In this document: positions 44,119 through 64,000 of the stretch, piece by piece | How positions within the stretch are numbered: the stretch's first letter is position 1 | Layout: each line of letters starts with the position of its first letter | NCBI RefSeq assembly: GCF_000012985.1 | Contig: NC_007645.1 | Location: 4,176,581-4,240,580, forward strand | Source of the DNA: Hahella chejuensis KCTC 2396 | Lineage (GTDB): Bacteria > Pseudomonadota > Gammaproteobacteria > Pseudomonadales > Oleiphilaceae | Reading direction: 5' to 3' | DNA length: 64,000 bases | Program-made: the position numbers and the translations under genes | Notes under the pieces: model-generated | The model's input: the letters and a program-made list of their open reading frames with translations, nothing else | The model's database searches: none | Told to the model about the DNA's origin: nothing

Positions 44119-44709
44119 TTATTGTTTAGTCTTGTTCTTATACGCCGATAAAAATAAGTGGTTGAGGCTATCTTCCGCTGTAACATTCTCATCTTTACGA
44201 GTGTGTTGCGGTGTTTGCTCCCCGTGATTTGCTTTTAGAAGCTCAAGCAGCCTCTTCATATCTTCATTGAGAGCAGGATTGGAGTTATTAACCTCCAAGC
44301 CTTGCAGAATCAATGTTTCGCCACTCTCAAGGTCTCCATCCAGACACTGAATAATACCGTTTTTAAAAACTCGCAACGGATTACTCTCGGGCAGCGCATC
44401 CAATTTTGACCAAGCTTCCCGAGCAGTTTCCGTATCTCCTACCGAAAACTTAATCAGCCCCGCCTGAAAGTGGGCGGTCCAGAGCTGCGGGTCCAGATCC
44501 ACCGCTTTCTGCATTGTTTCATATGCCCGCTCGTACATACCGATTTCCGCGTACTCGGCCGCTAACAAGTATGTATTTCGAGCATTACAGTCCAATGAAA
44601 TAGACCGTTTAAAAAGCAGAATGGCCTTTTCATGATCGCCTTTACCGCTGGCCTGCAGACCAAGATAAAATAGCTCTTCCGAATCCAGGTTATCCATTAA
44701 GTCACTCAT
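44119..44709 (-). CDS. TPR protein, possible secretion chaperone
   Basis: 196 residues from ATG 44709, six bases after a strong AAGGAG; the open frame extends nine codons further. After an acidic start (MSDLMDNLDSEELF) three or more tetratricopeptide repeats are visible, for example EKAILLFKRSISLD, YERAYETMQKAVDLDP and TAREAWSKLDALPESNP. The tail is Lys/Asn-rich. It is the last gene before the terminator and immediately follows fliP with a 10-base gap. TPR proteins of this size include type III secretion chaperones (SycD/LcrH type), so a chaperone for a substrate of this system is a reasonable guess, not a recognised family. Confidence 0.75.
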   Translation of the reverse strand: MSDLMDNLDSEELFYLGLQASGKGDHEKAILLFKRSISLDCNARNTYLLAAEYAEIGMYERAYETMQKAVDLDPQLWTAHFQAGLIKFSVGDTETAREAWSKLDALPESNPLRVFKNGIIQCLDGDLESGETLILQGLEVNNSNPALNEDMKRLLELLKANHGEQTPQHTRKDENVTAEDSLNHLFLSAYKNKTKQ

Positions 44710-44719
44710 ATCCAACTCC

Positions 44720-45466
44720 TTAATTAAAACTTCCAACTAATGCCTGAGCCACCAGAGTCCAACCTTCAATAAGCACAAACATTAGAATTTTAACGGGTAG
44801 CGATATTGTCAATGGCGGCACCATTATCATCCCCATTGACATCAGCACACTGGCTGAAACCAGATCAATCAATAAAAACGGCAGGAAAATGACAAATCCA
44901 ATTTGAAAAGCCGTTTGCAGTTCGCTGAGCATAAACGCCGTTATAAGCGACGTATTGGAGATATCGTTTAATGTTTCCGGCGACTCTTCTCCGGCCATTT
45001 CAATGGCAAGAGCGAGGTCTTTCTCCCTGGTTTGCCTGACCATAAACTCCCGCATCGGCGCCAACCCCGCGTTCACGGCTTCCGTAAAAACAAGCTCTCC
45101 AGCCAAATAAGGCTGCACCGCCTGCTGGTCAATCTTATTGAACACAGGCGCCATCGTAAAAAGAGTCAAAAATAGAGAAAGCGCAATAATCACGGTATTA
45201 GGCGGCGTTTGTTGCATACCAAACGCATATCGCAGCATGGAAAGCACAATGACTATGCGAGTAAACGACGTCAGGGCGATTAACAATGCTGGGGCCAAAC
45301 TTAGTACGGTCAAAACCGCTAAGACTTGAAGCGCGCTGGCGACTTCATCAGGAGATGACTTATCCAGTCCGGATAAGTCAACGCCAAATGAAGCCGTAGA
45401 CGCGTCCGCCCAGCTCAATGATGGAAATAAAAGTAATCCCAATAAAGGCAATAAATACCTAATCAC
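44720..45466 (-). CDS. fliP: Export gate protein FliP
   Basis: 248 residues, normal length. A signal peptide (about 1-20, LFPSLSWADA) is followed by the highly conserved FliP/SctR core: SFTRIVIVLSMLRYAFGMQQ, PPNTVIIALSLFLTLFTMAP, then FMLSELQTAFQIGFVIFLPF and LVSASVLMSMGMIMVPP. It forms the type III export gate with FliQ and FliR in the inner membrane. Its last-but-one position in the cluster, far from fliR, departs from the usual fliPQR order. The start overlaps the fliO stop by eight bases. Confidence 0.96.
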   Translation of the reverse strand: MIRYLLPLLGLLLFPSLSWADASTASFGVDLSGLDKSSPDEVASALQVLAVLTVLSLAPALLIALTSFTRIVIVLSMLRYAFGMQQTPPNTVIIALSLFLTLFTMAPVFNKIDQQAVQPYLAGELVFTEAVNAGLAPMREFMVRQTREKDLALAIEMAGEESPETLNDISNTSLITAFMLSELQTAFQIGFVIFLPFLLIDLVSASVLMSMGMIMVPPLTISLPVKILMFVLIEGWTLVAQALVGSFN

Positions 45467-46004
45467 TACCTTGCTCTCTTTTTTCTTCGCTCGTTGCAGG
45501 CAAGGTCAATGTCTGCATTGCAACGCTTTGTCCGTTATCAACAATCAGCACTTTTCGTCCTTCAACTTCCACCAAGTAGGCCTGAGTTTTAGCGTTTAAA
45601 CGCTTGGTTTCGATATATCGTATCTGCCCAGCCTGAACAGGGAGCGCGCCTTTTTTTGCAAGTAAGCGACGCACGCCCCATAAAGCCAGGGCGAGTAAAA
45701 CTAGAATAAAAAGCAGTAGCGTATAAACGCCACTAAACTCATGAGAGGGTTGACCGCCTTTGTCTTTGAAAGGCAACTCATTGAGAGGAACTGTTTCAAT
45801 TCCTCCTTGAACGCCTTTATTTACTGAAGCCGGTTCAGCGCTACGGGACGGATTCTCCACTGTTGTCGCAGAACTCGCTGCCGCCTCCGTCACCAGTGAA
45901 AAAGCAGTAGCATCGTCCAACCCTTCGGGAGACGCCCCCAGTGCAGATGGAGGCGTAAATCCTATCGCCGCCAAAAGGCAATATATAGAAATCAAGCGTC
46001 GCAT
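45459..46004 (-). CDS. fliO: FliO-like membrane protein
   Basis: 181 residues. An N-terminal hydrophobic segment with ALGAS-type cleavage precedes a Ser/Ala/Glu-rich stretch, a transmembrane helix (about 92-110; VYTLLLFILVLLALALWGV) and a cytoplasmic domain (GQIRYIETKRLNAKTQAYLVEVEGRKVLIVDNGQSV), the layout of FliO, which helps assemble FliP. Sequence is poorly conserved in this family, so position just before fliP is a main argument. Stop of fliO overlaps the fliP start. Confidence 0.85.
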   Translation of the reverse strand: MRRLISIYCLLAAIGFTPPSALGASPEGLDDATAFSLVTEAAASSATTVENPSRSAEPASVNKGVQGGIETVPLNELPFKDKGGQPSHEFSGVYTLLLFILVLLALALWGVRRLLAKKGALPVQAGQIRYIETKRLNAKTQAYLVEVEGRKVLIVDNGQSVAMQTLTLPATSEEKREQGSD

Positions 46005-46006
46005 TT

Positions 46007-46342
46007 TTAACGACTGGTCTCAGTGATCTGAATACCGAACACATCATCGACCGCCACCAGCTTTCCTCTAGCGACGACTTTACCATCCAGCAACAACTCA
46101 ATTGGATCATTCAGCTGTTTATTCATCTTTACCACGGATTCACTCGTCAGCGCTGTCAGCTCAGCAACGGTCAGATTGGCGTCGCCGAGATATACATCCA
46201 GTGTCACCTTCACGTTTTTAACCAGATCCAATGGGTCGCTTTTAAGCTTATCGCCAGCGCCGCCCTCGTTCATTGGCTCCAGAATAACTTCTTCCACAAT
46301 CGCGTCAGAATTAGTTTCTTTCACGTCTTTTTCTTGAGACAT
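46007..46342 (-). CDS. fliN: FliN-like C-ring protein
   Basis: 111 residues from ATG 46342 (AAGGG upstream); a TTG at 46351 would add three residues. An acidic start leads to a single SpoA domain (about 40-110; VKVTLDVYLGDANLTVAELTALTSESVVKMNKQLNDPIELLLDG, then GIQITET). FliN and SctQ-C proteins share this domain and form the base of the C-ring or sorting platform, where they recruit FliH and the ATPase. The gene starts a few bases after the fliM-like stop. Confidence 0.93.
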   Translation of the reverse strand: MSQEKDVKETNSDAIVEEVILEPMNEGGAGDKLKSDPLDLVKNVKVTLDVYLGDANLTVAELTALTSESVVKMNKQLNDPIELLLDGKVVARGKLVAVDDVFGIQITETSR

Positions 46343-46347
46343 TAATA

Positions 46348-47106
46348 TCAACCCTTAATATTCAAAAACTTAACTGATTTACGACCTTCGCACTCACCCA
46401 GGCTGGCTCTAAAACGTAATGCGCCGTCTTGAGTAAACACCAGCGCAGGTTCAGTTAATTTATGGTCCAGTTTAATAACGTCCCCGGCCTGTAGACTCGT
46501 CACTTCGTTAATAGTGAGCTCCACTGAGTTCAGCCGTACAGACAGCTTCGCCGATAGTTCCCCGCAAGAACGCAATAGTGATTCTAGAGGCTTCAGGGCG
46601 CCCCTATTAAACTCCGCGCCAGCTGGGAAATGCTTTTCGACCACCTTTGGAGACCATAATAGAACGATGCTGGCGGAAGGCCACGCTATGCTCACTTGAA
46701 TCCAACCAGACGCATACTCTTGCGCATACGCCAAGGATTCCATTTCGACTGGGTCCGCCGCTCCCCAGGACTCCGCCAGCTCACTTAGCGCCTGATTGAC
46801 GAGTCTGGCAACCAGCTTATGGCTGACATCTTCGTCGACCAACTTTTCTTTCAGTAAAAGAGAGGACCACTCACCATGATCTGCTTGCAACACGAACACG
46901 CCAGGTATGCTCAATGATTGCTCGCCAGCGGATGTCGCACGCTGAAGCAGCTGACTGTCGATATCCTGACTCTGCGCCAGACTCACATTGACAGCAACAT
47001 CCTCTCCTACCCACTCTCCGTACCAGGCTTTAGCGCATGCAACCACTTCCGCTTCTATCCGCTTCAATAATGAAGCGCCCCAAAGGCTATAAGGCCTGAC
47101 CGGCAT
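46348..47106 (-). CDS. fliM: Short FliM/SctQ-like protein without CheY-binding N-terminus
   Basis: 252 residues against about 330 in typical FliM. The C-terminus is a SpoA domain (about 185-245; LSVRLNSVELTINEVTSLQAGDVIKLDHK), preceding a FliN gene as in fliMN. The N-terminus (MPVRPYSLWGASLLKRIEAEV) does not have the LSQxEIDxLL motif that binds phospho-CheY, and I see no GGPG-type FliG contact motif. This makes it closer in layout to SctQ/YscQ of injectisomes. A C-ring made from it should not switch in response to chemotaxis. It overlaps the hook gene stop by one base. Confidence 0.8.
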   Translation of the reverse strand: MPVRPYSLWGASLLKRIEAEVVACAKAWYGEWVGEDVAVNVSLAQSQDIDSQLLQRATSAGEQSLSIPGVFVLQADHGEWSSLLLKEKLVDEDVSHKLVARLVNQALSELAESWGAADPVEMESLAYAQEYASGWIQVSIAWPSASIVLLWSPKVVEKHFPAGAEFNRGALKPLESLLRSCGELSAKLSVRLNSVELTINEVTSLQAGDVIKLDHKLTEPALVFTQDGALRFRASLGECEGRKSVKFLNIKG

Positions 47107-49088
47107 TACCGTCCCCTTACGCTGTTGTATAAGTTCTCTATCATCTCATTGGAGACGTTCATAACCTGAGAGCTGGCCTGATATCCACGCTGGATAATGA
47201 TAATTTCCGCAAACTCTCTGGAAAGCTCTACGTTGGAAAGTTCTATGCTCTCGCCTTTTACTTTTCCAAATCCGCCGGAGTTAGCTGCGCCGACAGTTAT
47301 TCCAGCGTCTTCGCCAGCACTGAATAAAGAACCGCCTTCTGAAGTCAGGGCATTAACATTCAAGAAATTGGCCATCGCCACTTGAGGGCCCGTTTTTTCT
47401 TGTCCATTGGAATATTTGAATGCGATGACGCCGTCTTCCTGAAACGAAAACTCCGTCACCCGACCTGCCTCAAAGCCATCAACATCAGAAACTTCAACTG
47501 AGTTGACGCCACTTAAAGACGTCAGTCCGCTTAAGGACAAGTCAAAATTGGCGGAGGCTTCTGTTCCCCTATCAACCAAGGCGATTCTCGGCCCTTCAGC
47601 AGTATTGCCATTTGAATAGGAAAGGTGCGCTACGCCTTTTTCGTCGAAGGTCACCTTTTCTAACAAGCCTTTTTCTTTACCATCAGCCACGGGAGATACG
47701 CCGTCAGTCACATCGACTTTCTGCGTCAGGCTCTTACTATCCGACTCATAAAGTTTTAGTTCCACACTAAGCGCGGTATCGTCACTGTCCGGTATTGATG
47801 CAGAAAAAGTTCTACTTTCCGCCGCCAAGATTCCGTTAGAGTCAAAATTGAGCGAATAAGGGCCAGACACTAATTCGCCCTCTGTATCTCTCAGCGTTAC
47901 ATTCCATACGTTCGCTGCTTGCTTAGTAAACTCCATGTTGATCTGCAGCTTTTCCCCGTTGCTTTGCATGACTTCAAAGGAAATCGGGTCCTCTCCTTCC
48001 GCCGGAAAGTTGGCGAAATCAGCAAGTTCGGGATTCAAGTTGCCAAACGCCTGCACTTTAGCGGTAGGCTTCGCAGGATTCTCTTTCAGATCTTTAAGAC
48101 TAAAGTCCGCAATTACTCCCTCGGAGTTAACTCCAGCTACTCGCTTGTCACTGCCGGTGACAACCAAATTACCGTCAACGTCAAAAGAAAACTCGCCGCC
48201 ATTAATATAGTCCGGCTCGCCCCCTTCATTGTTTCTGGCCATAAATAAAACTTCATCATCTAGGTTGAAGACCAACGCAGGAGCAGAAGTGAAGTCACCA
48301 TCTGTAAAGGCGTATTCGCCATCTTGCTTGAAAACGTCCTTGGCTTTTTCCGCACTCAATACTGAAAAAGGTAGATAATTTATTGAAAGATTGGCGTCTT
48401 CAGCGCGAATCGAGCCATCAGCGCCAAAAGAGACAATAGTCTCAGGCGCGACAAAATTGCCTTGTTGATCCTTCAGCTGCATCGCCCATTGCGAGCCAAA
48501 TTTCTTGACGAAGGAGACACGAACGTTACGCTTAACCCCCTGGTTATCAATAACGTCAATAGTTAGCGGAGTATCCGAGCCAGCACTGACAACACCACCC
48601 TCAGAAGTCCCCGCGTCGATGTTTCCTTTTATGGTGGCCTTAGTCGTAGCGGACGCTTCTGTGAACATATTCGCTTTTATGTTCAGGTCCGACAGCTTAT
48701 TCCCCCCGGTTAAAGCAGCGACTCGACGATTGGAGTTTTGGTCAACGAGATAACCATCATTATCCAGACGAAACTGGCCTGCTCTGGTGTACAGATTTTC
48801 CCCTTCTCCCCGTAAAATAAAAAAGCCGGCTCCATCAATCGCAAGGTCAGTGTTGTTGCCAGTCGTCGTAAGATCGCCAGCGCTGAACCGTATCCCGCTA
48901 CCGTTTACTTTGACACCGTCATAATGAGAGCCCTGTCCATCGCTGTATGGATTCAACTCTTGAAAGAATACGTCCCTTCCTTTGAATCCAGGCGTATTCA
49001 GATTTGACACATTATTGCTTGAATTTTCCAACCCCTTTGAAAACCCCAGCATCCCGCTCAAACTGGAATATATTGAACTCATGCTCAT
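47106..49088 (-). CDS. flgE: Extended flagellar hook protein FlgE
   Basis: 660 residues, against about 400 in enteric FlgE. The N-terminal rod/hook signature SIYSSLSGMLGFSKGL and NNVSNLNTPGFKG and the C-terminal coiled part (EFAEIIIIQRGYQASSQVMN, NEMIENLYNSVRGR) are intact. The surface-exposed middle is enlarged and contains beta-rich segments, including two related stretches VTFDEKGVAHLSYSNGNTAEGP and EFSFQEDGVIAFKYSNGQEKTGP, a repeat typical of longer hooks. It would form the extracellular curved tube. It is next to flgD as usual. Confidence 0.93.
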   Translation of the reverse strand: MSMSSIYSSLSGMLGFSKGLENSSNNVSNLNTPGFKGRDVFFQELNPYSDGQGSHYDGVKVNGSGIRFSAGDLTTTGNNTDLAIDGAGFFILRGEGENLYTRAGQFRLDNDGYLVDQNSNRRVAALTGGNKLSDLNIKANMFTEASATTKATIKGNIDAGTSEGGVVSAGSDTPLTIDVIDNQGVKRNVRVSFVKKFGSQWAMQLKDQQGNFVAPETIVSFGADGSIRAEDANLSINYLPFSVLSAEKAKDVFKQDGEYAFTDGDFTSAPALVFNLDDEVLFMARNNEGGEPDYINGGEFSFDVDGNLVVTGSDKRVAGVNSEGVIADFSLKDLKENPAKPTAKVQAFGNLNPELADFANFPAEGEDPISFEVMQSNGEKLQINMEFTKQAANVWNVTLRDTEGELVSGPYSLNFDSNGILAAESRTFSASIPDSDDTALSVELKLYESDSKSLTQKVDVTDGVSPVADGKEKGLLEKVTFDEKGVAHLSYSNGNTAEGPRIALVDRGTEASANFDLSLSGLTSLSGVNSVEVSDVDGFEAGRVTEFSFQEDGVIAFKYSNGQEKTGPQVAMANFLNVNALTSEGGSLFSAGEDAGITVGAANSGGFGKVKGESIELSNVELSREFAEIIIIQRGYQASSQVMNVSNEMIENLYNSVRGR

Positions 49089-49100
49089 AAACGCACCTTC

Positions 49101-49511
49101 CTATTCACGCACCAGGGAAATTCTGGAGGGACTGATTCCCACAATGGGAGTCCCATCTTCCTGAACCAGGGTTATTTCGGGCTTTCCATTATTAAAGGTA
49201 ATGGTTGAGACTTTGCCGACAGCAAATCCCTGATCATCATTCACTTGAACTGTTTTCCCTATCAAGCCGACTGTTTGAGCAACAGACTGCACATCCAACA
49301 GCCCTTCGATGTTCTCATTTGTTCTGGTCGCCGTTTCCAATGAAGAGAACTGCGCCAACTGAGCGATAAACTCTCTGTTATCCACTGGCTCCAGCGGGTC
49401 CTGAAAGGTTAACTGAGTCAGGAATATTTGCAGGAAATCTTCAATTCCTACCGTGTTCTGCTTTAACCCGCCAGCTTCGGCGCTCACTCGCGCTATAGAA
49501 TCTATCGCCAT
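49101..49511 (-). CDS. flgD: Short hook-capping protein FlgD
   Basis: 136 residues, against about 230 in typical FlgD. The conserved N-terminal half is present: EDFLQIFLTQLTFQDPLEPVD and NREFIAQLAQFSSLETATR, then a VGLIGKTV strand start. The FlgD Ig-like and Tudor-like domain that usually follows is mostly missing; only about 50 residues remain (VSTITFNNGKPEITLVQEDG). It still has the cap-forming signature needed to polymerise FlgE. Placed between the FliK-position gene and flgE. Confidence 0.92.
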   Translation of the reverse strand: MAIDSIARVSAEAGGLKQNTVGIEDFLQIFLTQLTFQDPLEPVDNREFIAQLAQFSSLETATRTNENIEGLLDVQSVAQTVGLIGKTVQVNDDQGFAVGKVSTITFNNGKPEITLVQEDGTPIVGISPSRISLVRE

Positions 49512-49516
49512 ACAAC

Positions 49517-50215
49517 TTATTCCTGATTAAAAGTGTTTCTAGCCGTCACCGCTGACAAGCTGTCCTTGTCTTCATGAAGCGGTTTACCGTTAAACATAAA
49601 GCTGAGCTGATCTTCATCGCACCCAAGCGTCTCTACAATCACTTTGCTCAAATCCAGTAACGCTTGTTTATGCTGTTGTTTGTAATCCCTTATCCATACC
49701 ACCAGCTTTTCTCCGTTTTTAGTGATATGGATATTGGTTGCGGGATAGAGTTCTCCCAGCAATTGGGAGACGTACTCCTTAGCGCGCGCCATCACTAACC
49801 GATTTTCCCTGCCAGCGCTTTGTCGCTCGTCCAGATTGGGTAGTTGTCTCATACCCGTCACTATTTCAGCAGTCTTGGCCCTAATCCCTGTATCCCCCCT
49901 GTCGACTGGGAGCTGCATAACAGGTGCATGACTGATAATGGAAGTACTTGTAGCCCAAGACGCTGGCGCAATCGCCTCTTTTGCAAGGCCTGAGTGAAGC
50001 TGGCTTATGCTTGGCGGCACTGACTCATTCGACATCGGGGCTATATTCGCCTCCCCTTTCATTGCAGTTTTCGCATGTGAGCCATCGTCAGGCGTCAAAT
50101 CGATATCCGCTTCCAATGTGGACAACCATTTAGCTTTTATATCCGCCCCGTTGCCGCTGGACTTATCTTTCCAGTCACTTAAAAGCTTCTCGACTATTCC
50201 GGCATTAAGCTCCAT
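49517..50215 (-). CDS. FliK-position protein (possible hook-length regulator)
   Basis: 232 residues from ATG 50215, eight bases after GGAG and overlapping the fliJ stop by 11 bases. No clear family signature; the first 130 residues are low in structure and the end is helical (IVETLGCDEDQLSFMFNGKPL). The name rests on its place between fliJ and flgD, where fliK normally lies. Its length is short for FliK, which is often 350-600 residues. A ruler or substrate-switch protein is therefore possible but not shown. Confidence 0.6.
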   Translation of the reverse strand: MELNAGIVEKLLSDWKDKSSGNGADIKAKWLSTLEADIDLTPDDGSHAKTAMKGEANIAPMSNESVPPSISQLHSGLAKEAIAPASWATSTSIISHAPVMQLPVDRGDTGIRAKTAEIVTGMRQLPNLDERQSAGRENRLVMARAKEYVSQLLGELYPATNIHITKNGEKLVVWIRDYKQQHKQALLDLSKVIVETLGCDEDQLSFMFNGKPLHEDKDSLSAVTARNTFNQE

Positions 50216-50678
50216 ATGACAACTCCATGGATTGTGCGTTTTTAGCATTGGTTAACTCGGATAAATCGCGCTCTGCCCGACTTTCCAACTCCGCCCATTT
50301 TAAAGCGCGCTCATCCAACAACTTCTGTTTAATCACCTCTTGAGCCGCCTCAAGTCGCGCCAGCTTTTCAAGTTGCGTCCGCAAAGCGGACTCCATGTCG
50401 TCAATGCTCATGTCAAGCGCTTTCAGATCCTCCCCAGCCGAACTTAGCCAAGCTCCAATTTCAATAAATCGGTGCAGATCCAACAGCGCTCCAGGTTGTT
50501 GCATTGCCCTGAACTCTGATTCCTGTGAATGAATCCGGCCCAGCAATTTTTTTCTGGACTTACTGAGCTCACTCAAAGCATTGTCAATGCTGATAAACTC
50601 CTGGCGGGTTTGAATCATTTCCAGCTTATTTTGGCTATTGATTATGCTGATTGCTCGCTCGCGCTTCGACATCTTCAT
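50205..50678 (-). CDS. fliJ: FliJ-like coiled-coil export chaperone
   Basis: 157 residues from ATG 50678, with AAGGG five bases upstream; a GTG at 50684 is also in frame. The chain is almost all helical and charged, forming a long antiparallel coiled coil (TRQEFISIDNALSELSKSRK, ALRTQLEKLARLEAAQEVI). This, with its place directly after fliI, fits FliJ, the stalk that links ATPase and FlhA. Primary sequence conservation in FliJ is low, so the call depends on size, fold and position. Confidence 0.83.
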   Translation of the reverse strand: MKMSKRERAISIINSQNKLEMIQTRQEFISIDNALSELSKSRKKLLGRIHSQESEFRAMQQPGALLDLHRFIEIGAWLSSAGEDLKALDMSIDDMESALRTQLEKLARLEAAQEVIKQKLLDERALKWAELESRAERDLSELTNAKNAQSMELSYGA

Positions 50679-50725
50679 AAGCACCCTTGATTATTCCCTT
50701 AGCTTAATGGGGAAAGTCCAATTAA

Positions 50726-52054
50726 TTACTTTCCTGATAAAACTTGCTTCAAGGCGGTGACAATATCCCTATTCGACCCGCTTTCGCCTTCAGACTGAGA
50801 GATGAACTTGTTGAGGGCTTTATGTACCCGGATAGCCTGGTCTATTTCAGGATCTCCGCCCTGTTTATACGCCCCTAATTCAATCAGCTCCTTTGACTCC
50901 TGATATAGACTCTCAAGGCGGATCAGCTCTCTCACGGCCATTTGCTGCTCTTTTCCTGTAACACGCGGGAAAAGACGACTCATGCTTTCGCGAATATCAA
51001 TGGCGGGAAATATCCCTTGATGAGCCAGCTGCCGCTTGAGCATGATATGACCATCCAAGATGGACCGTACTGTATCCGAAACCGGCTCATTAAAATCATC
51101 GCCTTCAACCAATACTGTATACAACGCAGAGATAGAGCCGCCGCTTTTGAATATTCCCGCTCGCTCCGTCAACCTTGGCAACAAGGAGAAAGTTGAGGGC
51201 GTATAACCTCTTGATGTGGGAGGCTCCCCAATCGCAAGGCCTATTTCACGTTGCGCAGTCGCCAGCCGGGTAATTGAATCCATATACAGCATGACGTGCT
51301 TGCCTTTGTCTTTGAAGTATTCAGCAATAGCTGTCGCGACAAATGCAGCATGAACGCGCACCAATGCAGGTTCGTCCGCAGTCGCCGCAACAACAACGCT
51401 TTTCTTCAAACCATCAGAACCCAGGTTATCCTGGATAAACTCACTGACTTCTCTACCCCGTTCGCCTATCAGCGCGATGACATTCACCTCGGCGTCGCAT
51501 TGCTTGGCGATCATGCCCAGCAGGGTGCTTTTACCTACACCGCTACCAGCAAATATACCCACTCGCTGACCTTTGGCCATTGCACAGAATGCGTCAATAA
51601 CCCTAACACCCAAGTTCAACGGCTCATCGCAGGGTGCTCTTTCCATGGGGTTAATCGGCTCTCGATAAAGCGGATAGCTCTTCCCCGGGCTCGACAGGAC
51701 TCCTCCATCAAGTGGCGTACCGAAAGCATTCACCACCTTACCTAACATGCCATCATTGACAGTAACGCTGGCTGGTAAGCCAGTCGCCACTACTTCACTC
51801 CCCACATGAATGCCAGTGACGCGACCTAATGGCATCAACAGAACGCGACCATGACGAAATCCGACCACTTCTGCGGCTATTGACGTTAACTGTCCAGGTG
51901 AAAAGACCTCGCATACTTCGCCCAAAAAGGCGTCGGGACCAGCGCATTCCAGCACCGAACCATAAAACTGCTCCACCCGTCCGACCCGACGAACTGTCTC
52001 GCACTCTCTGATCGCATCGATCAGTCGCGCAAGTTGGTTAGCGTTTTCTTTCAA
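50726..52054 (-). CDS. fliI: Flagellar-type secretion ATPase FliI
   Basis: 442 residues. Walker A GSGVGKST, ALIGERGREVSEF (the family signature), ADEPALVR, HVMLYMDSITRLA (Walker B) and PTSRGYTPSTFSLLPRLTERAG are all present. The C-terminal VRELIRLESLYQESKELIELGAY fits the stalk-proximal region. It supplies unfolding and delivery of substrates to the export gate. It starts about 20 bases after the fliH stop. Confidence 0.97.
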   Translation of the reverse strand: MKENANQLARLIDAIRECETVRRVGRVEQFYGSVLECAGPDAFLGEVCEVFSPGQLTSIAAEVVGFRHGRVLLMPLGRVTGIHVGSEVVATGLPASVTVNDGMLGKVVNAFGTPLDGGVLSSPGKSYPLYREPINPMERAPCDEPLNLGVRVIDAFCAMAKGQRVGIFAGSGVGKSTLLGMIAKQCDAEVNVIALIGERGREVSEFIQDNLGSDGLKKSVVVAATADEPALVRVHAAFVATAIAEYFKDKGKHVMLYMDSITRLATAQREIGLAIGEPPTSRGYTPSTFSLLPRLTERAGIFKSGGSISALYTVLVEGDDFNEPVSDTVRSILDGHIMLKRQLAHQGIFPAIDIRESMSRLFPRVTGKEQQMAVRELIRLESLYQESKELIELGAYKQGGDPEIDQAIRVHKALNKFISQSEGESGSNRDIVTALKQVLSGK

Positions 52055-52074
52055 AAGACCTCCACAGCAACAAA

Positions 52075-54723: not shown

Positions 54724-54740
54724 CAGTTACTACCTTTAAA

Positions 54741-55037: not shown

Positions 55038-55040
55038 TTA

Positions 55041-55442: not shown

Positions 55443-55444
55443 AA

Positions 55445-55822
55445 TTAACGCCCGCCATTGATTGCTGATTTCATGATTCCGCCCAACTTAGACTTAGCGG
55501 TCAAAAGCGCTTGATAATTAATGACATTCTTATTCAGCGCCAGAATTTGCTCATCCAGTTCAATCTTCACCGCCGCTTCCTCAAGCGAGATAAACTGGTC
55601 GAGATTCACGTTGTTAATTCGGTCTACTTTGTCAGCGTCGTTCAAACTACTATTGGCGACCGAGTCAATATGCTGAAGAGCCGCTTTAAAATTCAGCGAC
55701 ATGGCTCTATAGCCTTCGGTAGAAGCATTAGCCACGTTCTGGGCGATTAAGCGCTGCTGCAGCTGAGCCGCATCCAGTGATTTGTTCAATAAAGTCGATG
55801 TGACTGAAGTTAAAAGATCCAT
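55445..55822 (-). CDS. flgB: Proximal rod protein FlgB
   Basis: 125 residues, normal size. It has the rod signature QQRLIAQNVANASTEGYRA and a C-terminal helix (LDEQILALNKNVINYQALLTAKS). It is the first rod gene after the 39-base gap behind flgI. Next gene flgC follows after two bases. Confidence 0.96.
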   Translation of the reverse strand: MDLLTSVTSTLLNKSLDAAQLQQRLIAQNVANASTEGYRAMSLNFKAALQHIDSVANSSLNDADKVDRINNVNLDQFISLEEAAVKIELDEQILALNKNVINYQALLTAKSKLGGIMKSAINGGR

Positions 55823-55861
55823 AAATGATTACACTTTCTAGTTCTAGGCAGCACGGCCGCT

Positions 55862-56986: not shown

Positions 56987-57579
56987 ATTAGGCCCACCTT
57001 GGTAAGAAACCAGTGAATAAAACCTCTGTCATCGGAATCCCCCAAGATACCTTTCCCGTTGTATTCGATTTGCGCGTCGGAAATTCTGGTGGAGAGAATA
57101 GTGTTCTGAGCAGTAATATCCTCTTCCCTTACCCAACCAGTTAGCTTGATCGTTTGCTTCTCGCCATTAACCGTAATTTTCTGCTCGCCAGAGATCAGCA
57201 GTCTGCCTACGTCATCTTTATCAATAACATCAACGCTAACGCGCGCCCTCAACTCACCTTCACGCTGTGTACTGGCGCCGCTGTTTCTGCCTAAACCAAG
57301 CTCAAGGCTACCCACTTCGGTACGATTGGTTTGCCCAAAGGAACCGGAAGCCTCAAGTGACTGATTAACCTTCGAATCGCTGCTCGCGCCGGCTTTAGAT
57401 ACCTCAACGATCAGAACCGTCAGGTTATCGCCTACTCGGTAGGCTTTTTTATCTGACGTCAAAGGCCGGAAGCTGGCCTCGTCGAACAGACTCTCGGCAA
57501 ATACCAAATTCGGCAGCGCCAAAACGCCCAACAGACAAAATGCTCGTATTAACCACTTCACAATTAACTTCCTATCCAA
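56983..57579 (-). CDS. flgH: L-ring protein FlgH without visible lipobox
   Basis: 198 residues, short for the family (about 230). The mature part has the FlgH signature: RVGDNLTVLIVEVSKAGASS, GELRARVSVDVIDKDDVGRL, ISGEQKITVNGEKQTIKLTG and WVREEDITAQNTILSTRISDA. The N-terminus is a signal peptide ending in VFAES, and I see no [LVI][AS][GA]C lipobox, whereas FlgH is usually a lipoprotein. It would still make an outer-membrane ring. Stop overlaps flgI, start overlaps flgA. Confidence 0.93.
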   Translation of the reverse strand: MDRKLIVKWLIRAFCLLGVLALPNLVFAESLFDEASFRPLTSDKKAYRVGDNLTVLIVEVSKAGASSDSKVNQSLEASGSFGQTNRTEVGSLELGLGRNSGASTQREGELRARVSVDVIDKDDVGRLLISGEQKITVNGEKQTIKLTGWVREEDITAQNTILSTRISDAQIEYNGKGILGDSDDRGFIHWFLTKVGLI

Positions 57580-58550
57580 ACTCGACCAGCAGACAAAACC
57601 ACACCCAACATGGTCTCCCCACTGCTAACTGACTTTAATTTGATGCGATCGCCTATATACGCATCGTGCATCGCTTCTGCTCGGCTCCGCAGAAACACAG
57701 TTCCAACGCGGACTTCTACGAATACTATGTCGCCGTTTTTAATTTCCGGAATCGCTCGTAACACATCTTTTGTAATCGGTTGACCCGACTCAACTCTTCT
57801 TGAGAATTCTTTTCCTTCAATCTCTCTCCTGCTCGCAGGCTCAATCCCGGCTGCAGCGACATCAATGAACTCCCTTTTCAGAGGATGAACATCAACCGCC
57901 GTTCCCTTTTCAGCATCCGTAGAGGGAGTCCAGACTTCCCCCATGGCCGACACGTCAAACCATACCGGAGCGCTGTTAAGCAGCACTCCTGAGGCATCGA
58001 CGATGTCGGCCCAGATGCATAAACGGCGAGATAGCGCGCTCACTTCCAGCGGGCGAATTCGTATCTCCGCCACGCGCCTGGAAACCAACACGCTTCTTCT
58101 CTTTGTGCTAACTGGCTTTACTTTGATTTCTTGAAAGCCTGCATCGACAAGCCAGTTATTCAAGTACTCGCCAGCCTTGGCTTCAAGCGCCGCAAGGTCG
58201 ACCTTTTCGGCAGCTAGATTCAGCGTTACGTAGTCCGGTCCCTCCACCTTCCATGAGGACATACTGGACTCTAACGCCCACTGAGCCAGTTGCTTGTCGA
58301 CTTCCAATTTAGAAATAGAGCCTGCTCTTAGTTGACGAGGAGAAAGCACAATCATAGGTAGCGCGCTCCCCTTCTGAGCTCCATCCAGCCGCACAGCGCC
58401 CAGACGCTTGAGCTCAATGCGTATCTCCTCTTTGCCCTTCCCATGCTCGTTCGTGCTTATCAAGGTTACATACGGGCTTAATGTCAGGTGATTTTCAGCC
58501 CAACAAGAAAGACTTAACGCATATATGACCAAGCACAAAAAGTAACGCAT
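57564..58550 (-). CDS. flgA: P-ring assembly chaperone FlgA
   Basis: 328 residues, longer than the usual about 220. Signal peptide (about 1-18). The C-terminal SAF-type part (about 235-328) has the FlgA pattern: EFSRRVESGQPITKDVLRAI, NGDIVFVEVRVGTVFLRSRA, and GDRIKLKSVSSGETMLGVVLSAGRV. The N-terminal 100 residues are not clear in other FlgA. It helps assemble FlgI in the periplasm and sits upstream of flgH, overlapping it by 16 bases. Confidence 0.9.
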   Translation of the reverse strand: MRYFLCLVIYALSLSCWAENHLTLSPYVTLISTNEHGKGKEEIRIELKRLGAVRLDGAQKGSALPMIVLSPRQLRAGSISKLEVDKQLAQWALESSMSSWKVEGPDYVTLNLAAEKVDLAALEAKAGEYLNNWLVDAGFQEIKVKPVSTKRRSVLVSRRVAEIRIRPLEVSALSRRLCIWADIVDASGVLLNSAPVWFDVSAMGEVWTPSTDAEKGTAVDVHPLKREFIDVAAAGIEPASRREIEGKEFSRRVESGQPITKDVLRAIPEIKNGDIVFVEVRVGTVFLRSRAEAMHDAYIGDRIKLKSVSSGETMLGVVLSAGRVWIGS

Positions 58551-58580
58551 ACAACCTAACTTCAGAGCTAACGTTTATTA

Positions 58581-59345
58581 TTAACCCCGGAGGTCGTTGG
58601 TAATCTGCATAATTTCATCAGCCGCCCTGATGACGTGGGAATTAGCTTGATATCCACGCTGGGCTGTCACCAGTTCGACCAGTTCTTTCACGAGATCCAC
58701 GTTAGAACTTTCAAGAAATCCTTGCTGGATCATACCCAGGCCATTGACGCCCGCCTGGGAATATAAAGGGGCGCCCGCGTCATCCGCAGGGATATATAAA
58801 CCCTGTCCTGCGGACTCTAACGCTTGGTCATTGACGAATTTAGCCAGTTGTATTTCGCCAACCTCAAGAACATCCTCACCTATCAACACCTTCACCACTC
58901 CATCTGTTGAAATCTGCATCTTTGACGCATCGGGGGGAATCTGTATCTGATCAGACAGGCGCAATCCCGTAAGTGTTGAAAGATAGCCGTCCTCATCAAT
59001 TTTGAGAGCGCCGTTTCGGGTATAGCCATACTCACCGTTCTCTAGTAACACCTCAAAAAAACCATCCCCACGAATCGCCAGATCCAATTGGTTTTCAGTC
59101 GCTTTAAGGTCCCCTGAGTCAAACTGCATAGAAACCTCAGCGACTTTTGTCCCCATTCCGACAGACCCTATTCCTTTTCCTTCTGCCGCCGAGGCTGCAG
59201 GCTGCCGGCTAACCAGGTCGCCAAACGCCACCCGACTTTTCTTATATGCGACGGTGTTAAGGTTCGCCATATTATTAGAGATGGTTTCGATCTGCTTTTG
59301 TCCGGCTTGCAAACCTGTTTCAGCAACATATAACGCATCAATCAT
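58581..59345 (-). CDS. flgG: Distal rod protein FlgG
   Basis: 254 residues, normal size. The conserved start IDALYVAETGLQAGQKQIETI and NNMANLNTVAYKKSRVAF, the NQLDLAIRGDGFFEV segment and the end LVKELVELVTAQRGYQAN with IRAADEIMQITNDLRG are present. It makes the distal rod that crosses the L and P rings. Twelve bases after flgF. Confidence 0.97.
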   Translation of the reverse strand: MIDALYVAETGLQAGQKQIETISNNMANLNTVAYKKSRVAFGDLVSRQPAASAAEGKGIGSVGMGTKVAEVSMQFDSGDLKATENQLDLAIRGDGFFEVLLENGEYGYTRNGALKIDEDGYLSTLTGLRLSDQIQIPPDASKMQISTDGVVKVLIGEDVLEVGEIQLAKFVNDQALESAGQGLYIPADDAGAPLYSQAGVNGLGMIQQGFLESSNVDLVKELVELVTAQRGYQANSHVIRAADEIMQITNDLRG

Positions 59346-59357
59346 GAACCTAATCTC

Positions 59358-60065
59358 CTAAAATTTTCCTAAAGTGCTAATGGCGCTGTCTATCGAGCCG
59401 TCATAGGCTTTGAGAACATTATGCGAAAGTTGATAATGGCGGGTAAGCTCTACTAGTCTCACTATTTCTTCCATTGTATTGACGTTGGACATTTCTAAAT
59501 AAGACTGCATAACCTGGGCGCCTGTCGCCTCGGTAGGGGCTTGCTTCGTGGGATTTTCAAAAAGCCCGGCGCCAGCATAGCTCAACTGTTCAGGGTGTTG
59601 AAAAGTCACCACCGCCAATTTATCCAAAACAACGCCGTCCTGAACAACAGATCCATCTGGTTGCACTACAAAATCAGCGTCATTCAATGCAATAGGTCCA
59701 CTACGCCCCAGTAGTCGCTCACCAGTCACCAATCCCAGATAACCGTCAGGGTTAAGGCGCATTTGCCCTTTGCGGGTGAAAAAGGTCTTATCGCTTGATG
59801 AAGCCATCAGAAAGCCCTCTCCATCCAAAGCGATGTCCATAGCGTTCCCTGTCAACTTAAAAGCGCCTTGCGTGAAATCTTTCTGCAGCGAAAATTCCGG
59901 CTCCAGTTTCGCCCCGCTCAGATACGCCGCCTGGAACTTCTCCACTATCATCTGGTCACGCTTGTAAGCCGGGGCGCCCTGATTAGATAGGTTTTGACTA
60001 ATGGTCCGCAGACGTTCGAGATCTGCATTCAATGTGAGCTGAATTGCACTAATTACGTCAGCCAT
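59358..60065 (-). CDS. flgF: Proximal rod protein FlgF
   Basis: 235 residues from ATG 60065, seven bases after AAGGAAAG, one base after the flhA stop; the open frame upstream overlaps flhA and is rejected. It has the rod/hook family start DVISAIQLTLNADLERLRTIS, NLSNQGAPAYKRD, the NAMDIALDGEGFLM segment and the end MEEIVRLVELTRHYQLSHNV. The order flgF-flgG is normal. Confidence 0.93.
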   Translation of the reverse strand: MADVISAIQLTLNADLERLRTISQNLSNQGAPAYKRDQMIVEKFQAAYLSGAKLEPEFSLQKDFTQGAFKLTGNAMDIALDGEGFLMASSSDKTFFTRKGQMRLNPDGYLGLVTGERLLGRSGPIALNDADFVVQPDGSVVQDGVVLDKLAVVTFQHPEQLSYAGAGLFENPTKQAPTEATGAQVMQSYLEMSNVNTMEEIVRLVELTRHYQLSHNVLKAYDGSIDSAISTLGKF

Positions 60066-60066
60066 A

Positions 60067-62160
60067 CTAGCTTTCCTTCTTTTCTCTGGTCGTTGCGCGG
60101 TTAACAAGGCCACGATCAACTTCCACTATGGAAAATGACTTGATATTCATGCCGACGGGCACCTCGGTTAGCGCCAACACGGTCAGATGTGGAAGCAGTC
60201 TTCCAGACAGCTTTCTAATATGACGGCGAACTCCAGGTGAAGTAATCAACACAGGCTTCAATCCCACCGCCATCATTTTCTCTACCTGCCGCGCAAGACT
60301 GCTCAGCACCTGTTCGGTCAACTTCGGGTCAACATATAGAGACGCCCCCTGTTCCGTCACTCTAATGCCGGACTGCATAAGTTGCTCAATTCCCGGGTCC
60401 ATACTCATGACGTGGAGGTAACGATCCTGCGCCACTAAATCCTGACATATTTCAGCGCCAAGCTTTTGTCGCACCTGATCCGCCAATTGCTCGTGGTCCT
60501 TACTTACTTTGCCGGCGTCGACTAACGCTTCCGCGATAAGCTCAATGTTTCTGATGGACACTTTTTCCTGCAACAGTTGCTGCAGCACTTTTTGAATATC
60601 AGAGAGCGTCAACGTGTTGGGAACCAGCTCTTCATACAGAGAAGACTGCGCCGTACGCACTCTTCCCATCAGTTTTTCTGTTTCTGACCGAGTTAAAAGG
60701 GCCGGCGCTTGTAACCTGACTGTTTCGTTTACATGAGTCAGCATCACTGTTAACGGGTCAACCAGGGTACAGTTAAATTGCCGCGCTTTTTCTTTTAAAT
60801 TCTCTTCTATCCAGACCGCCGGTAGCCCATAGGTAGGGTCTTTCACTGAGACCCCAGGTAATTTATCCGTCAAGTCCTGCGCACTGATCGCCAATATTCG
60901 ATCTGAGTACAACTCGCCTTCAGCAACTTGAGCGCCATGCACACAGACTTTATATTCGCGTTCACTATTGCGATCTGTCTGATATATTTTCACATTCGGT
61001 AAAACGAATCCCAGCTCAAGCGCCAGCTGTTTACGGAGCCTTTTGATCTCATCCATCAAGGCCCCTTCACTAGCCCCTAGATATCCGGCGATCGAAGGTC
61101 CAAGCGAGATCTCCAACGGTTCAACTTTCAGCTCCTCATAGATGTCCTTTTCCGCATCTTCCTGATCTTCGACGTTATCCTCAGCTTCCTGATACTTGTT
61201 CTGTTTGAAGGCATACACCACCAGCGCAGCCATCAGTGAAGCGACAATAAAAATTGGAAGTGCAGGGATGCCAGGAAGCAGCAGCAGTGAGAGCAACCCC
61301 AGGGTAACTATTACAAGGCTCTTAGGATAACGAGTAACCTGCCTGGAAATTTCATCCCCCAAAAATGCATCTGTCGCCGCACGGGTAATGATAATTCCCG
61401 TTGCAGTAGAAATAACCAGCGCAGGAATCTGAGTCACAATGCCGTCGCCAACTGTCAGCAATGTATAGCTATGTAGCGCTTCACCCCAGCTAAGGCCTCG
61501 TTGTGCAATTCCAACGGTCAATCCACCAATAATATCAATTAGTATGATTAAAATGCCGGCGATGGCGTCGCCTTTTACAAACTTACTGGCCCCGTCCATA
61601 GCGCCGTAAAAGCTGGCTTCGCGCTCGATGTTCTGACGCCTTTCGCGGGCCTCTTTTTCATCAATGAGGCCCATGTTCATGTCAGCGTCAATGCTCATTT
61701 GTTTACCCGGCATGCTATCCAGAGTAAACCTGGCGGCTACTTCCGCCACCCTCTGAGCGCCATTGGTGACAACCACATACTGAACGACAATCAATATGAG
61801 AAAAACGACAAGTCCTATCACGTAGTTACCGCCAACGACATAAGTACCGATAGCGTTAATTACTTCACCTGCGTCTCCATCAGACAAAATCAGTCTGGTG
61901 GCGGCGATATTCAGTGATAACCGGAATAATGTCGCGATAAGTAACAATGAAGGGAACGTCGAGAACCCAAGCGGCTTATCGACAAAGAAGGTTAATAGGA
62001 GAATTAACAGCCCAAAGCTGAAATTAATGATTAGCAGCACATCCAGCAGCTGTGAGGGTATAGGTGTAAAAAGCACCAACAGTATGCCCACCATACCCAG
62101 GACAAGAGCCAACTCACTGCGTGTTCCCAGCAGTGAAGCCATTGATGGTCTACTCATCAT
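60067..62160 (-). CDS. flhA: Export gate protein FlhA
   Basis: 697 residues, normal size. Eight transmembrane helices lie in the first half (about 15-330). The conserved FHIPEP region reads RFTLDSMPGKQMSIDADMNM with AGLID-type continuation, and the charged segment GAMDGASKFVKGDAIAGI is intact. The C-terminal half is the cytoplasmic substrate-binding domain with SRTETEKL-type and IRNIELIAEALVD segments. Start overlaps the flhB stop (ATGA). Confidence 0.97.
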   Translation of the reverse strand: MMSRPSMASLLGTRSELALVLGMVGILLVLFTPIPSQLLDVLLIINFSFGLLILLLTFFVDKPLGFSTFPSLLLIATLFRLSLNIAATRLILSDGDAGEVINAIGTYVVGGNYVIGLVVFLILIVVQYVVVTNGAQRVAEVAARFTLDSMPGKQMSIDADMNMGLIDEKEARERRQNIEREASFYGAMDGASKFVKGDAIAGILIILIDIIGGLTVGIAQRGLSWGEALHSYTLLTVGDGIVTQIPALVISTATGIIITRAATDAFLGDEISRQVTRYPKSLVIVTLGLLSLLLLPGIPALPIFIVASLMAALVVYAFKQNKYQEAEDNVEDQEDAEKDIYEELKVEPLEISLGPSIAGYLGASEGALMDEIKRLRKQLALELGFVLPNVKIYQTDRNSEREYKVCVHGAQVAEGELYSDRILAISAQDLTDKLPGVSVKDPTYGLPAVWIEENLKEKARQFNCTLVDPLTVMLTHVNETVRLQAPALLTRSETEKLMGRVRTAQSSLYEELVPNTLTLSDIQKVLQQLLQEKVSIRNIELIAEALVDAGKVSKDHEQLADQVRQKLGAEICQDLVAQDRYLHVMSMDPGIEQLMQSGIRVTEQGASLYVDPKLTEQVLSSLARQVEKMMAVGLKPVLITSPGVRRHIRKLSGRLLPHLTVLALTEVPVGMNIKSFSIVEVDRGLVNRATTREKKES

Positions 62161-63269
62161 GTGGCGGCCCCTTTCATACTGAATTGATCTCTCCCCTGCC
62201 GTTCTCTTTTGATTTGATAAGCGCGGCGTAAAGCCCTTGCCACGCCCACAAACGCATCCTCTGGAATCATTGAGCCAATCTCAGTTTTCTTGAATAAATA
62301 ACGGGCCAACGGAGGGTCCTGAATAATTGGCACCTGATGTTGGCGCGCCAAGTCCCGCAGATGTTTCGCCATGGCGTCCCCCCCTTTCCCGGTCACTGTC
62401 GGCGCGGCCATTTTTTTTGCGTCATACTTTACAACCACCGCATAGTGTTCCGGATTAGTGATAATCAGGTCTGCTTCAGGAACGCTGGCTGCAGAGCCAC
62501 TGCGTTTACGCAGCTCCCTTTCCAGCTCTTTTCTTTTCGCCCTGATGTGGGGATCTCCCTCGCGCCTTTTAATCTCGTCTTTAACTTCTTTCTTAGTCAT
62601 GCGCATGTTGCGCATAAACTCCCAGCGGGTGAACAACATATCAATGAGCGCAATCAATAATAGCGCCGCCGTCAGTTTGAATATAATTCCCGCAGCGTAT
62701 CCAATGAATACAGGCAATGCCGTCGCCGCTGACTTGGCGGTTAACCCGAAGAGATCTGGCATCAGGCCAGCCAAAGCCCAGTACAAAACGCTCCCCAGCA
62801 AAGCAAGCTTTATCAGGTTCTTCACTAGCTCAAACAATATCTTGATGGAGAATAAGCGCTTAAAACCTGTGATTGGATTGATCCGCTTAATATCAGGTTT
62901 AATGGGGTGAAAAGAAAATACAGGGCCCGTCTGAACTATTGAGCACAAAACGCCAATCACCATCATTACAACCAGTAACGGACTCAATATCCAACTTACC
63001 TCCGATACAATCCAGATTCCCCAGGCTTTTGCCGTTATGATGTCAAAGTCAACAGACGCTGCGTCTGCGAATAGTTTTTGGCACAGGCTGAAGAAACGTG
63101 TGGCGAGATCCTGTGATACTGACCACAAAAGCAACGCACCAGCGGCGAGAGCGAAGACATGACTGACTTCCTGACTCTTCGCCACACTACCCTTCTTCTT
63201 CGCCTCTTGGAGTTTAAAAGGCGAAGGGGGTTCGGTCTTTTCAGACTTATCTGGTTGCGACTCTGCCAT
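62157..63269 (-). CDS. flhB: Export switch protein FlhB with NPEH motif
   Basis: 370 residues, normal size. The start SEKTEPPSPFKLQEAKKKGSV and four transmembrane helices (about 32-215) are typical. The cytoplasmic autocleavage motif reads NPEH instead of the commoner NPTH (ADLIITNPEHYAVVVKYD), still with the cleavable Asn-Pro. The C-terminal VPIIQDPPLARYLFKKTEIG is conserved. It controls the switch from rod/hook to later substrates. Confidence 0.96.
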   Translation of the reverse strand: MAESQPDKSEKTEPPSPFKLQEAKKKGSVAKSQEVSHVFALAAGALLLWSVSQDLATRFFSLCQKLFADAASVDFDIITAKAWGIWIVSEVSWILSPLLVVMMVIGVLCSIVQTGPVFSFHPIKPDIKRINPITGFKRLFSIKILFELVKNLIKLALLGSVLYWALAGLMPDLFGLTAKSAATALPVFIGYAAGIIFKLTAALLLIALIDMLFTRWEFMRNMRMTKKEVKDEIKRREGDPHIRAKRKELERELRKRSGSAASVPEADLIITNPEHYAVVVKYDAKKMAAPTVTGKGGDAMAKHLRDLARQHQVPIIQDPPLARYLFKKTEIGSMIPEDAFVGVARALRRAYQIKRERQGRDQFSMKGAAT

Positions 63270-63276
63270 AACTGCT

Positions 63277-64000
63277 TCAAATGACTGTCAGCATTCCACT
63301 CCAGTAGCGGAATATAGAGTTAAACACTTCTCCAATAAGTGGAGTCAGGTATTTGAGTGAGAGCGCCGTCACGATGATCCCTAACGCCACTTTTAATGGC
63401 AGAAATAGAAAGTAAACATTCATTTGCGGCATCGTCCTCGCCATCACCGCCACGCCCACATCCAATAAAAACAACACCGCCAGGACTGGCGCCGCCAGCA
63501 CCATCGCGAATGAAAACATCAAGCCAAACTGTTTCATGGCGCCAGGAAAATCCATTCTCACCAGTCCTGAGCCCGGGGGAACCTGAGCAACGCTATAAGC
63601 AAGCCCTTTAATCACCATATGATGCGCATCCATGCTAAAAAAAACGAAGGTGGCGAAAAACAGCAATATTGTTCCCATCAACGGCTCCGCCGAGTTTGTT
63701 GCGGGATTCATTATATTCGCCGCGCCGAAGCCTGATTGAAAATCAATCAGCCTGCCGGCTATCTGAAATACGGTAAAGGCGGCGTGCAAACCTAAAGCCA
63801 TCGCCAACCCCAGCACCAACTCATTCGCACAGGCCAACGCCATATCAACGACTGAAGATGGTAATTGCACACCCGTGGCGGGCGAGAAACGCACCATCAA
63901 CAACGCCAGGGCGCAAACCAAGAAAAACCTAATGCGCCCAGGCAAACGTCCAAACATATCAAAAGGAGAAGCCATCACCACTAACGCCAGTCGTATGGAC
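63277..64000 (-). CDS. fliR: Export gate protein FliR, 5' end outside window
   Basis: The frame is open to the window edge and the reading is SIRLALVVMASPFDMFGRLP, which continues as GRIRFFLVCALALLMV, so the gene starts beyond 64000 and the ATG at 63981 is internal. Six hydrophobic helices and the FQIAGRLIDFQSGFGAANIMNP segment are typical of FliR/SctT. It forms the export gate with FliP and FliQ. It precedes flhB by seven bases; fliQ, if present, should lie upstream out of view, because fliP is 19 kb downstream. Confidence 0.93.
   Translation of the reverse strand, partial: SIRLALVVMASPFDMFGRLPGRIRFFLVCALALLMVRFSPATGVQLPSSVVDMALACANELVLGLAMALGLHAAFTVFQIAGRLIDFQSGFGAANIMNPATNSAEPLMGTILLFFATFVFFSMDAHHMVIKGLAYSVAQVPPGSGLVRMDFPGAMKQFGLMFSFAMVLAAPVLAVLFLLDVGVAVMARTMPQMNVYFLFLPLKVALGIIVTALSLKYLTPLIGEVFNSIFRYWSGMLTVI

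Follow-up and report, generated by a model that had tools for sequence, protein, structure and literature searches.

The stretch of DNA analysed here, called the window throughout, comprises 64,000 nucleotides of Hahella chejuensis KCTC 2396 (NC_007645.1, positions 4,176,581 to 4,240,580) and is part of a single 7,215,267-bp contig. It contains a cluster of flagellum-type export and hook-basal-body genes, all on the minus strand, together with the adjoining gene of a giant RHS/YD-repeat protein. An earlier examination of the letters alone (the sequence-only reading) had reported at this place an export gate, FliH, FliI and FliJ, MS, P and L rings, rod, cap and hook on one strand, and Pfam named 16 families that confirm this set (FliP, FliN, FlgE, FlgD, FliI, FliH, FliF, FliE, FlgI, FlgH, FlgA, FlgG, FlgF, FlhA, FlhB and FliR). 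The exception is FliJ, whose slot is present by position only; Pfam and NCBIfam searches gave no identification for it or for the fliK slot. The G+C content of the cluster is 49% as compared with about 54% in its flanks. The features, in the order in which they lie, are as follows.

26405..26815, minus strand: candidate immunity or partner open reading frame (ORF) of 136 amino acids (aa), by position, beginning directly after the giant's stop codon
26817..43952, minus strand: giant RHS/YD-repeat protein, 5711 aa, proposed export substrate (Pfam RHS_repeat and LysM; leader family A5)
44119..44736, minus strand: TPR protein of 205 aa (TPR205), possible chaperone (Pfam TPR)
44720..45466, minus strand: fliP, export gate (Pfam FliP 1.4e-74)
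45459..46004, minus strand: fliO-like (Pfam FliO 3.7e-4, slightly below cut-off)
46007..46351, minus strand: fliN (Pfam FliMN_C 5.9e-17)
46348..47106, minus strand: FliM-like, 252 aa (Pfam FliMN_C, the C-terminal SPOA domain, only)
47106..49088, minus strand: flgE, hook (Pfam FlgE D1/D2)
49101..49511, minus strand: flgD, hook cap (Pfam FlgD 8.3e-18)
49517..50248, minus strand: fliK slot, 243 aa (position only; no Pfam match)
50205..50684, minus strand: fliJ slot, 159 aa (position only)
50726..52054, minus strand: fliI, export ATPase (Pfam ATP-synt_ab and T3SS_ATPase_C)
52075..52899, minus strand: fliH (Pfam FliH 1.2e-11)
52862..53338, minus strand: X, reduced FliG, 158 aa (hhalign, held-out profile, PDB profile search, structural model)
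53335..54723, minus strand: fliF, MS ring, 462 aa (Pfam YscJ_FliF and FliF_C)
54741..55037, minus strand: fliE (Pfam 1.1e-27)
55041..55442, minus strand: flgC (Pfam rod C-terminal domain and position)
55445..55822, minus strand: flgB (Pfam rod domain and position)
55862..56986, minus strand: flgI, P ring (Pfam 4.2e-122)
56983..57579, minus strand: flgH, L ring (Pfam 2.2e-41)
57564..58550, minus strand: flgA, P-ring chaperone (Pfam ChapFlgA)
58581..59345, minus strand: flgG, distal rod (Pfam)
59358..60119, minus strand: flgF, rod (Pfam)
60067..62160, minus strand: flhA, export gate, belonging to the rotorless clade (Pfam 1.6e-239; trees)
62157..63269, minus strand: flhB (Pfam 4.6e-110)
63277..64000, extending to window-equivalent 64,047, minus strand: fliR (Pfam)

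Extension of the contig past the window edge, a check proposed by the sequence-only reading, identified the end of fliR, followed by fliQ and the two TPR genes TPR378 and TPR179, up to a transposase fragment at window-equivalent ~66,030 (Pfam). No MotA or MotB was present among the scanned cluster proteins; a whole-genome MotB search was not made.

The fliG slot (52862-53338) holds, as previously reported, a 158-residue protein (X). Pfam gave X no match above the cut-off; three matches at chance level were seen, the best with an E-value of 0.06, no FliG family was among matches up to E 10, and NCBIfam was likewise uninformative. Using hhalign, X aligned to FliG 10-191 (93.6%, E 2.1e-7), while among the controls none of seven other families from the cluster exceeded 1.0% and none of 20 column shuffles 0.4%. 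A profile hidden Markov model (HMM) of 58 non-Hahella X sequences, searched against 636 ORFs, identified the window's own X (3.6e-12) and the canonical FliG of the same genome (1.4e-6), all the rest lying at 0.19 or above; this held-out HMM matches 65 of the 80 relative loci described below, its 58 training rows having been drawn from those same loci. All 13 matches at E <0.01 in a PDB profile search with X were to FliG, including a single FliF-FliG fusion, and an AlphaFold2 (AF2) model of X is similar to FliG. The X-FliG sequence alignments stop before the FliG C domain and the FliG_C Pfam model is silent at the X locus; in a FliG-family test X was found to have the N (FliF-binding) and middle (FliM-binding) armadillo domains and to lack the C domain with its charged torque helix. 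Judged from its sequence, X is a FliG cut to its N and middle domains that has lost the torque-generating C domain; an unrelated filler protein is ruled out by hhalign, the held-out HMM and the PDB profile search. The earlier description of a reduced rotor is extended by the loss of this domain and amended in that the 158-aa protein is a truncated FliG. A match to X in genome G221, at first taken as weak and due to chance, turned out to be a true orthologue that shares its contig with a locus of the clade (L094).

The two other rotor parts are reduced much as had been described. FliMN_C was found in 16 of 16 homologues of the FliM-like protein and is all that Pfam sees, no FliM middle-domain family being among matches at E <=1, and a CheY-binding start is not recognisable by eye. 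FliF is short (462 aa, where the canonical FliF of this genome has 572 aa) and retains, on comparison by eye, the short C-terminal helix (..EIKTWLNSV).

We scanned the GTDB species genomes with an FlhA alignment via two peptide patterns, identifying 146 relatives, of which the best 80 were analysed, so the true number is larger. The genera represented include Hahella, Zooshikella, Kangiella, Pleionea, Dyella, Lysobacter, Nevskia, Variovorax, Caenimonas, Massilia/Duganella, Ramlibacter, Roseateles, Undibacterium, Ralstonia, Burkholderia and others, with one Novosphingobium and one assembly labelled Verrucomicrobia. Among the 80 loci, fliF is covered in 67 and a slot ORF could be picked in 65; after removal of four in the wrong frame, 61 were kept, spanning 110-256 aa, while loci too short for the slot count as clade members on FlhA alone. 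The canonical FliG profile (E <=0.01) gave one weak match to these slot ORFs, the 236-aa ORF of Ralstonia sp. A12. Among 40 matches listed of 453 FlhA-matching plasmid records three were clade-like (50-54% identity, proteobacterial); the plasmids of Undibacterium sp. YM2 and Burkholderia ubonensis have the same layout, with a slot gene annotated as ‘hypothetical protein’ that is X by position. Within Hahella the clade FlhA is present in six of seven genomes, and the five other clusters share the core gene order of the window and a TPR205 homologue, the flanks being rearranged in the most distant, G410. The dN/dS ratio for X is 0.030 (window against Hahella sp. HN01) and all 13 of the 17 genes for which it was computed have values <=0.395, with dS high for several. 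Low dN/dS, kept gene order and wide relatives together argue that the cluster is not decaying.

The giant adjoining the cluster, overlooked in the sequence-only reading, is its likely cargo. The 5711-aa protein contains RHS/YD repeats and a LysM domain close to the C-terminus (Pfam), and its N-terminus, MVAVVSGEGLGLF...GQSGERVYVNAATGNLVLQ, recurs in cluster-adjacent giants of Kangiella, Rhodanobacteraceae, Burkholderia, Paraburkholderia, Telluria, Pseudoduganella and Duganella, the conserved leader segment being about 35 residues. Leader-bearing frames reach 15,898 aa, although lengths vary and many are ended by a contig edge. Two further leader-bearing giants in the window's genome (G000:C1:1194550 and 1701846) are unlinked to the cluster; the leaders of the three are identical or near-identical and their C-termini differ by eye. 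A leader profile, with rows from seven of the 79 genomes carrying a clade locus, was found (E <=1e-5) in 71 of the 79, or in 64 of 72 without the contributors of its rows, and had no match in the sole Hahella genome lacking the cluster.

In an even draw of 369 genomes from the class, a strong leader (E <1e-25) and X (E <=1.1e-19, ORF <=217 aa) co-occurred in the same four genomes (Fisher p 1.3e-9), both cut-offs having been fixed after the lists were seen. The association holds without the window's genome (3/3 vs 0/365, p 1.2e-7) and for the two genomes that are in neither profile (2/2 vs 0/365, p 1.5e-5), the X profile having rows from the window's genome and G221; the counts leave out a short ORF of G187 that matched the X profile at E 6e-6. 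Weak leader-like ORFs without X were seen in nine of these genomes (G004, G024, G029, G092, G100, G143, G175, G282 and G308); they are mostly thousands of residues long and possibly belong to another RHS family.

Among the first 12 residues of the leader at most one is K or R, and the leader is without any strongly hydrophobic stretch, its best hydrophobic 12-mer scoring 1.1-1.7 vs 2.1-2.9 in FlgI, FlgH, FlgA and FliP of the same cluster. We propose that this conserved leader acts as an export signal. The giants share with RHS polymorphic toxins the YD repeats; the C-termini, which differ by eye among three paralogues, and the small downstream gene, assigned by position, may be further points of likeness. 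They differ in their size and in a conserved leader linked to an export machine. The 136-aa ORF after the giant is, by its position, a candidate immunity or partner gene. Passages on flagella or type III secretion systems (T3SS) in a 2012 survey (PMC3482391) do not mention this export route.

The association across genomes strongly suggests that the RHS giants are the cargo. We infer that the cluster secretes and that the giants are what it exports, and we read it, with a probability of roughly 75%, as a non-rotating hook-basal body dedicated to their export. A device with which the giants merely travel together, and that secretes something else, such as hook or rod proteins or unknown effectors, or serves another role such as adhesion or the control of twitching, is unlikely. 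It would account for the two giants of the window's genome that lie away from the cluster, and in a non-flagellated Lysobacter species flagellar export genes have been tied to FlgD, heterologous FliC and twitching in passages of two papers (PMC7277350, PMC9927559) whose main texts do not contain the term Rhs. Against it, the association also holds in trans across genomes (71/79; 4/4 vs 0/365), giants track the presence or absence of the cluster within Hahella, except in G405 (contig end), and their N-termini are not Sec-like.

The sequence-only reading had held that its interpretation would suffer if a complete fliG elsewhere acted with this set, if flagellin and stator genes stood in its operon, or if this were the only flagellum of a motile strain. 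A genome-wide search for a second flagellar set identified a separate canonical locus at ~5.31-5.34 Mb, where fli and flh genes were labelled by HMM and chemotaxis and Mot genes were recognised by eye. The sole FliG_C of the genome, at 5.337 Mb, is inside this locus. The absence of flagellin from the cluster was borne out: Flagellin_N was found at four places, 4.60, 4.96 (two) and 7.08 Mb, all of them more than 300 kb from the cluster, which lies at about 4.22-4.24 Mb. The alternative of a second or a relic flagellum for motility, which borrows the canonical FliG, stator and flagellin or is decaying, would fit this complete canonical set and the presence of FliG_C somewhere in 61 of the 79 clade-locus genomes. 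However, no FliG_C was found in the other 18 (9/40 plus 9/39) and 17 of these also lack Flagellin_N, which refutes such a flagellum for hosts that are truly FliG-less; X in a fixed position under purifying selection and the separation of the cluster FlhA from canonical flagella as one well-supported clade also speak against it, leaving it very improbable.

The 18 FliG-less assemblies, mostly drafts, are nine metagenome-assembled genomes and nine isolates (Kangiella sp. HZ709, Caenimonas koreensis, Variovorax sp. OV700, V. boronicumulans, Variovorax sp. 770b2 and CF313, Ramlibacter sp. WS9, Lysobacter sp. ISL-50 and Rhodanobacteraceae ZG21-1), and because most are drafts the overall pattern is surer than any single absence. 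Ten of the 18 have a single FHIPEP protein, which must be that of the cluster. Fifteen FliG-less genomes have a leader match and in eight of these, drafts included, a giant lies within 39 kb on the cluster contig. Since FliG_C and flagellin are missing from many hosts, the machine seems independent of both, and the idea of a non-rotating hook-basal body for secretion stands, its non-rotating secretion role being well supported.

Certain Massilia/Duganella-type genomes (L166, L167 and L169) contain a further locus with fliP-flhA and fliE-fliF-fliG-fliH-fliI and a full-length FliG, and Dyella (L168) a fliE-fliI stretch with FliG. The second FliG of the Massilia/Duganella genomes was considered as a part of the cluster and rejected, as three of the four stretches read place it in a complete export locus apart from the cluster and in the fourth it is accompanied by fliE, fliF, fliH and fliI.

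The FlhA phylogeny called for by the sequence-only reading placed the cluster on the flagellar side. In a tree of 73 rows the 36 cluster sequences form one group (SH-aLRT 100) and the split between flagellar and SctV proteins has support 100. A second tree of 68 rows, to which Bacillota, Actinomycetota, Acidobacteriota, Thermomicrobium, alphaproteobacterial, Cupriavidus and E. coli sequences were added and from which near-duplicates were thinned, again gave both at 100 and grouped the cluster with flagella of Bacillota, Thermomicrobium and Curtobacterium (support 89), a possible nesting inside Bacillota-like flagella; a single clade of all flagella was not rejected (approximately unbiased (AU) test, p 0.252). 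Both trees were quick ones without bootstrap, the first with long branches flagged as meeting. They indicate a separate lineage within or beside flagella, and not an injectisome. With the flagellum the cluster shares the export gate, ATPase, MS, P and L rings, rod, hook cap and hook in similar gene blocks, but its FliG lacks the C domain, its FliM is reduced and many of its hosts are without FliG_C and flagellin. With the injectisome it has in common reduced rotor parts and, as proposed here, a flagellum-related export of non-flagellar proteins, but its FlhA is apart from the SctV clade and FliE, FlgB and FlgC are present. An injectisome (non-flagellar T3SS) or a direct flagellum-injectisome intermediate, for which one may point to the SctQ/SctK platform as likened to reduced FliM plus FliG and to the ~36-38% identity of the cluster FlhA to SctV-like proteins of its own genome, is scarcely credible given the rod, P- and L-ring and hook proteins, the lack of any secretin match among the cluster proteins (Pfam) and the SctV split.

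Some of the clusters have a sigma factor of their own. In 9 of 24 cluster-bearing genomes searched, a gene for a FliA/WhiG-type sigma was located 15-19 kb from flhA on the same contig, and this gene adjoins fliP in the layouts that were read (G410, Kangiella, Caenimonas and both plasmids). Sites resembling TAAAC-N14-[GC][CT][CG]GAT are located 88-109 nt upstream of the start in 6 of 15 giants, and a strict sigma28-like motif, defined only after inspecting the sequences, has six matches in 2.93 Mb, four of which sit <=200 bp before one of 16 giants. The cluster sigma and these sites together suggest when the cargo is synthesised. In the window's genome no extra sigma and no sigma28-like motif before its three giants was found. 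The three giants have ~85 bp of upstream DNA in common, including a terminator-like hairpin. Hahella sp. HN01 has a sigma-factor-like C-terminal frame upstream of its second RHS giant (L041 19596-19895, G393:C72, minus strand).

In the mechanism that we propose FliF would form a ring whose retained C-terminal helix may dock the N domain of X, and the middle domain of X would bear the reduced FliM/FliN platform together with FliH-FliI. The FlhA/FlhB/FliPQR gate would open into the rod, passing through the FlgI and FlgH rings to the FlgE hook as a channel to the outside. Without a FliG C domain, stator or filament there would be no turning or propulsion. The late cargo, replacing flagellin, would be one or more of the giant leaderless RHS/YD proteins with their common N-terminal segment, and in part of the family the FliA-type sigma and sigma28-like promoters may ensure that cargo is made once the channel is ready.

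On balance we lean towards regarding these clusters as a third class of type III machine in its own right, next to the flagellum and the injectisome and dedicated to the export of giant RHS proteins. Such a class would have left the flagellar lineage independently by losing the FliG torque domain and the filament, retained outer rings and hook for its passage through the outer membrane, taken over the sigma28-type control of flagellin in part of the family, spread between Beta- and Gammaproteobacteria, also on plasmids, and been mistaken for leftover flagellar genes. It would then be a second independent conversion of a flagellum to a secretion machine beside the injectisome, with an evolutionary step, the loss of the FliG torque domain, readable in a single gene. 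Such a machine gives a non-relic function to the flagellar genes of Kangiella, Caenimonas, Variovorax and Lysobacter strains that lack FliG and flagellin, opens a way out of the cell to giant leaderless RHS proteins and makes the question of whether a hook-basal body works without a rotor directly testable.

Hook-basal bodies of Buchnera, flagellar basal bodies that probably serve secretion and not motility, are the relic of an endosymbiont, whereas the present clusters form their own clade, patchily distributed in many families and on plasmids, and have a candidate cargo. A part of a 2026 survey that cites the Buchnera case (PMC13063649) lists Kangiellales among orders with free-living strains that lack flagellar genes altogether; in contrast, Kangiella sp. 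HZ709 carries the present cluster. Two Ysc systems are mentioned for H. chejuensis in a passage of Abby and Rocha (2012, PMC3459982). Among the titles and abstracts listed in searches of the open-licence literature, we found no description of the present system with RHS cargo, subscription literature being outside the scope of the search.

The closest published case has flagellar export genes in a bacterium without flagellin, as here. In the non-flagellated Lysobacter enzymogenes OH11 secretion of heterologous FliC needs flhB and fliI, according to passages of Fulano et al. (2020, PMC7277350), and the strain is said in a part of PMC9927559 to secrete FlgD. Its export genes differ in being described in these passages as not forming one operon, and the passages report neither RHS giants nor reduced FliG, FliM-like, FliE and FlgB homologues. 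In the same work, 15 Lysobacter genomes searched by BLAST are reported to lack fliC, fliD, flgK, flgL, flgB, fliE, fliG, fliM, motA and motB. In Lysobacter sp. ISL-50 the present cluster occurs (L162), its FlgB, FliE and X having diverged, and part of the published loss list may therefore be a failure of detection. The list is close to what BLAST would miss in the present cluster.

Some features of neighbouring genes were also observed. The cluster on the Undibacterium plasmid is flanked by a 38.8-kb gene annotated as ‘tandem-95 repeat protein’ (L241 1-14911), and its flgI is annotated in two pieces (L241 25225-26357). In Hahella G410 a 989-aa protein is encoded beside the cluster sigma gene (L048 3593-6562), which by eye has a glycosyltransferase-like start and is glycoside-hydrolase-like further on, and a nearby gene resembles its start.

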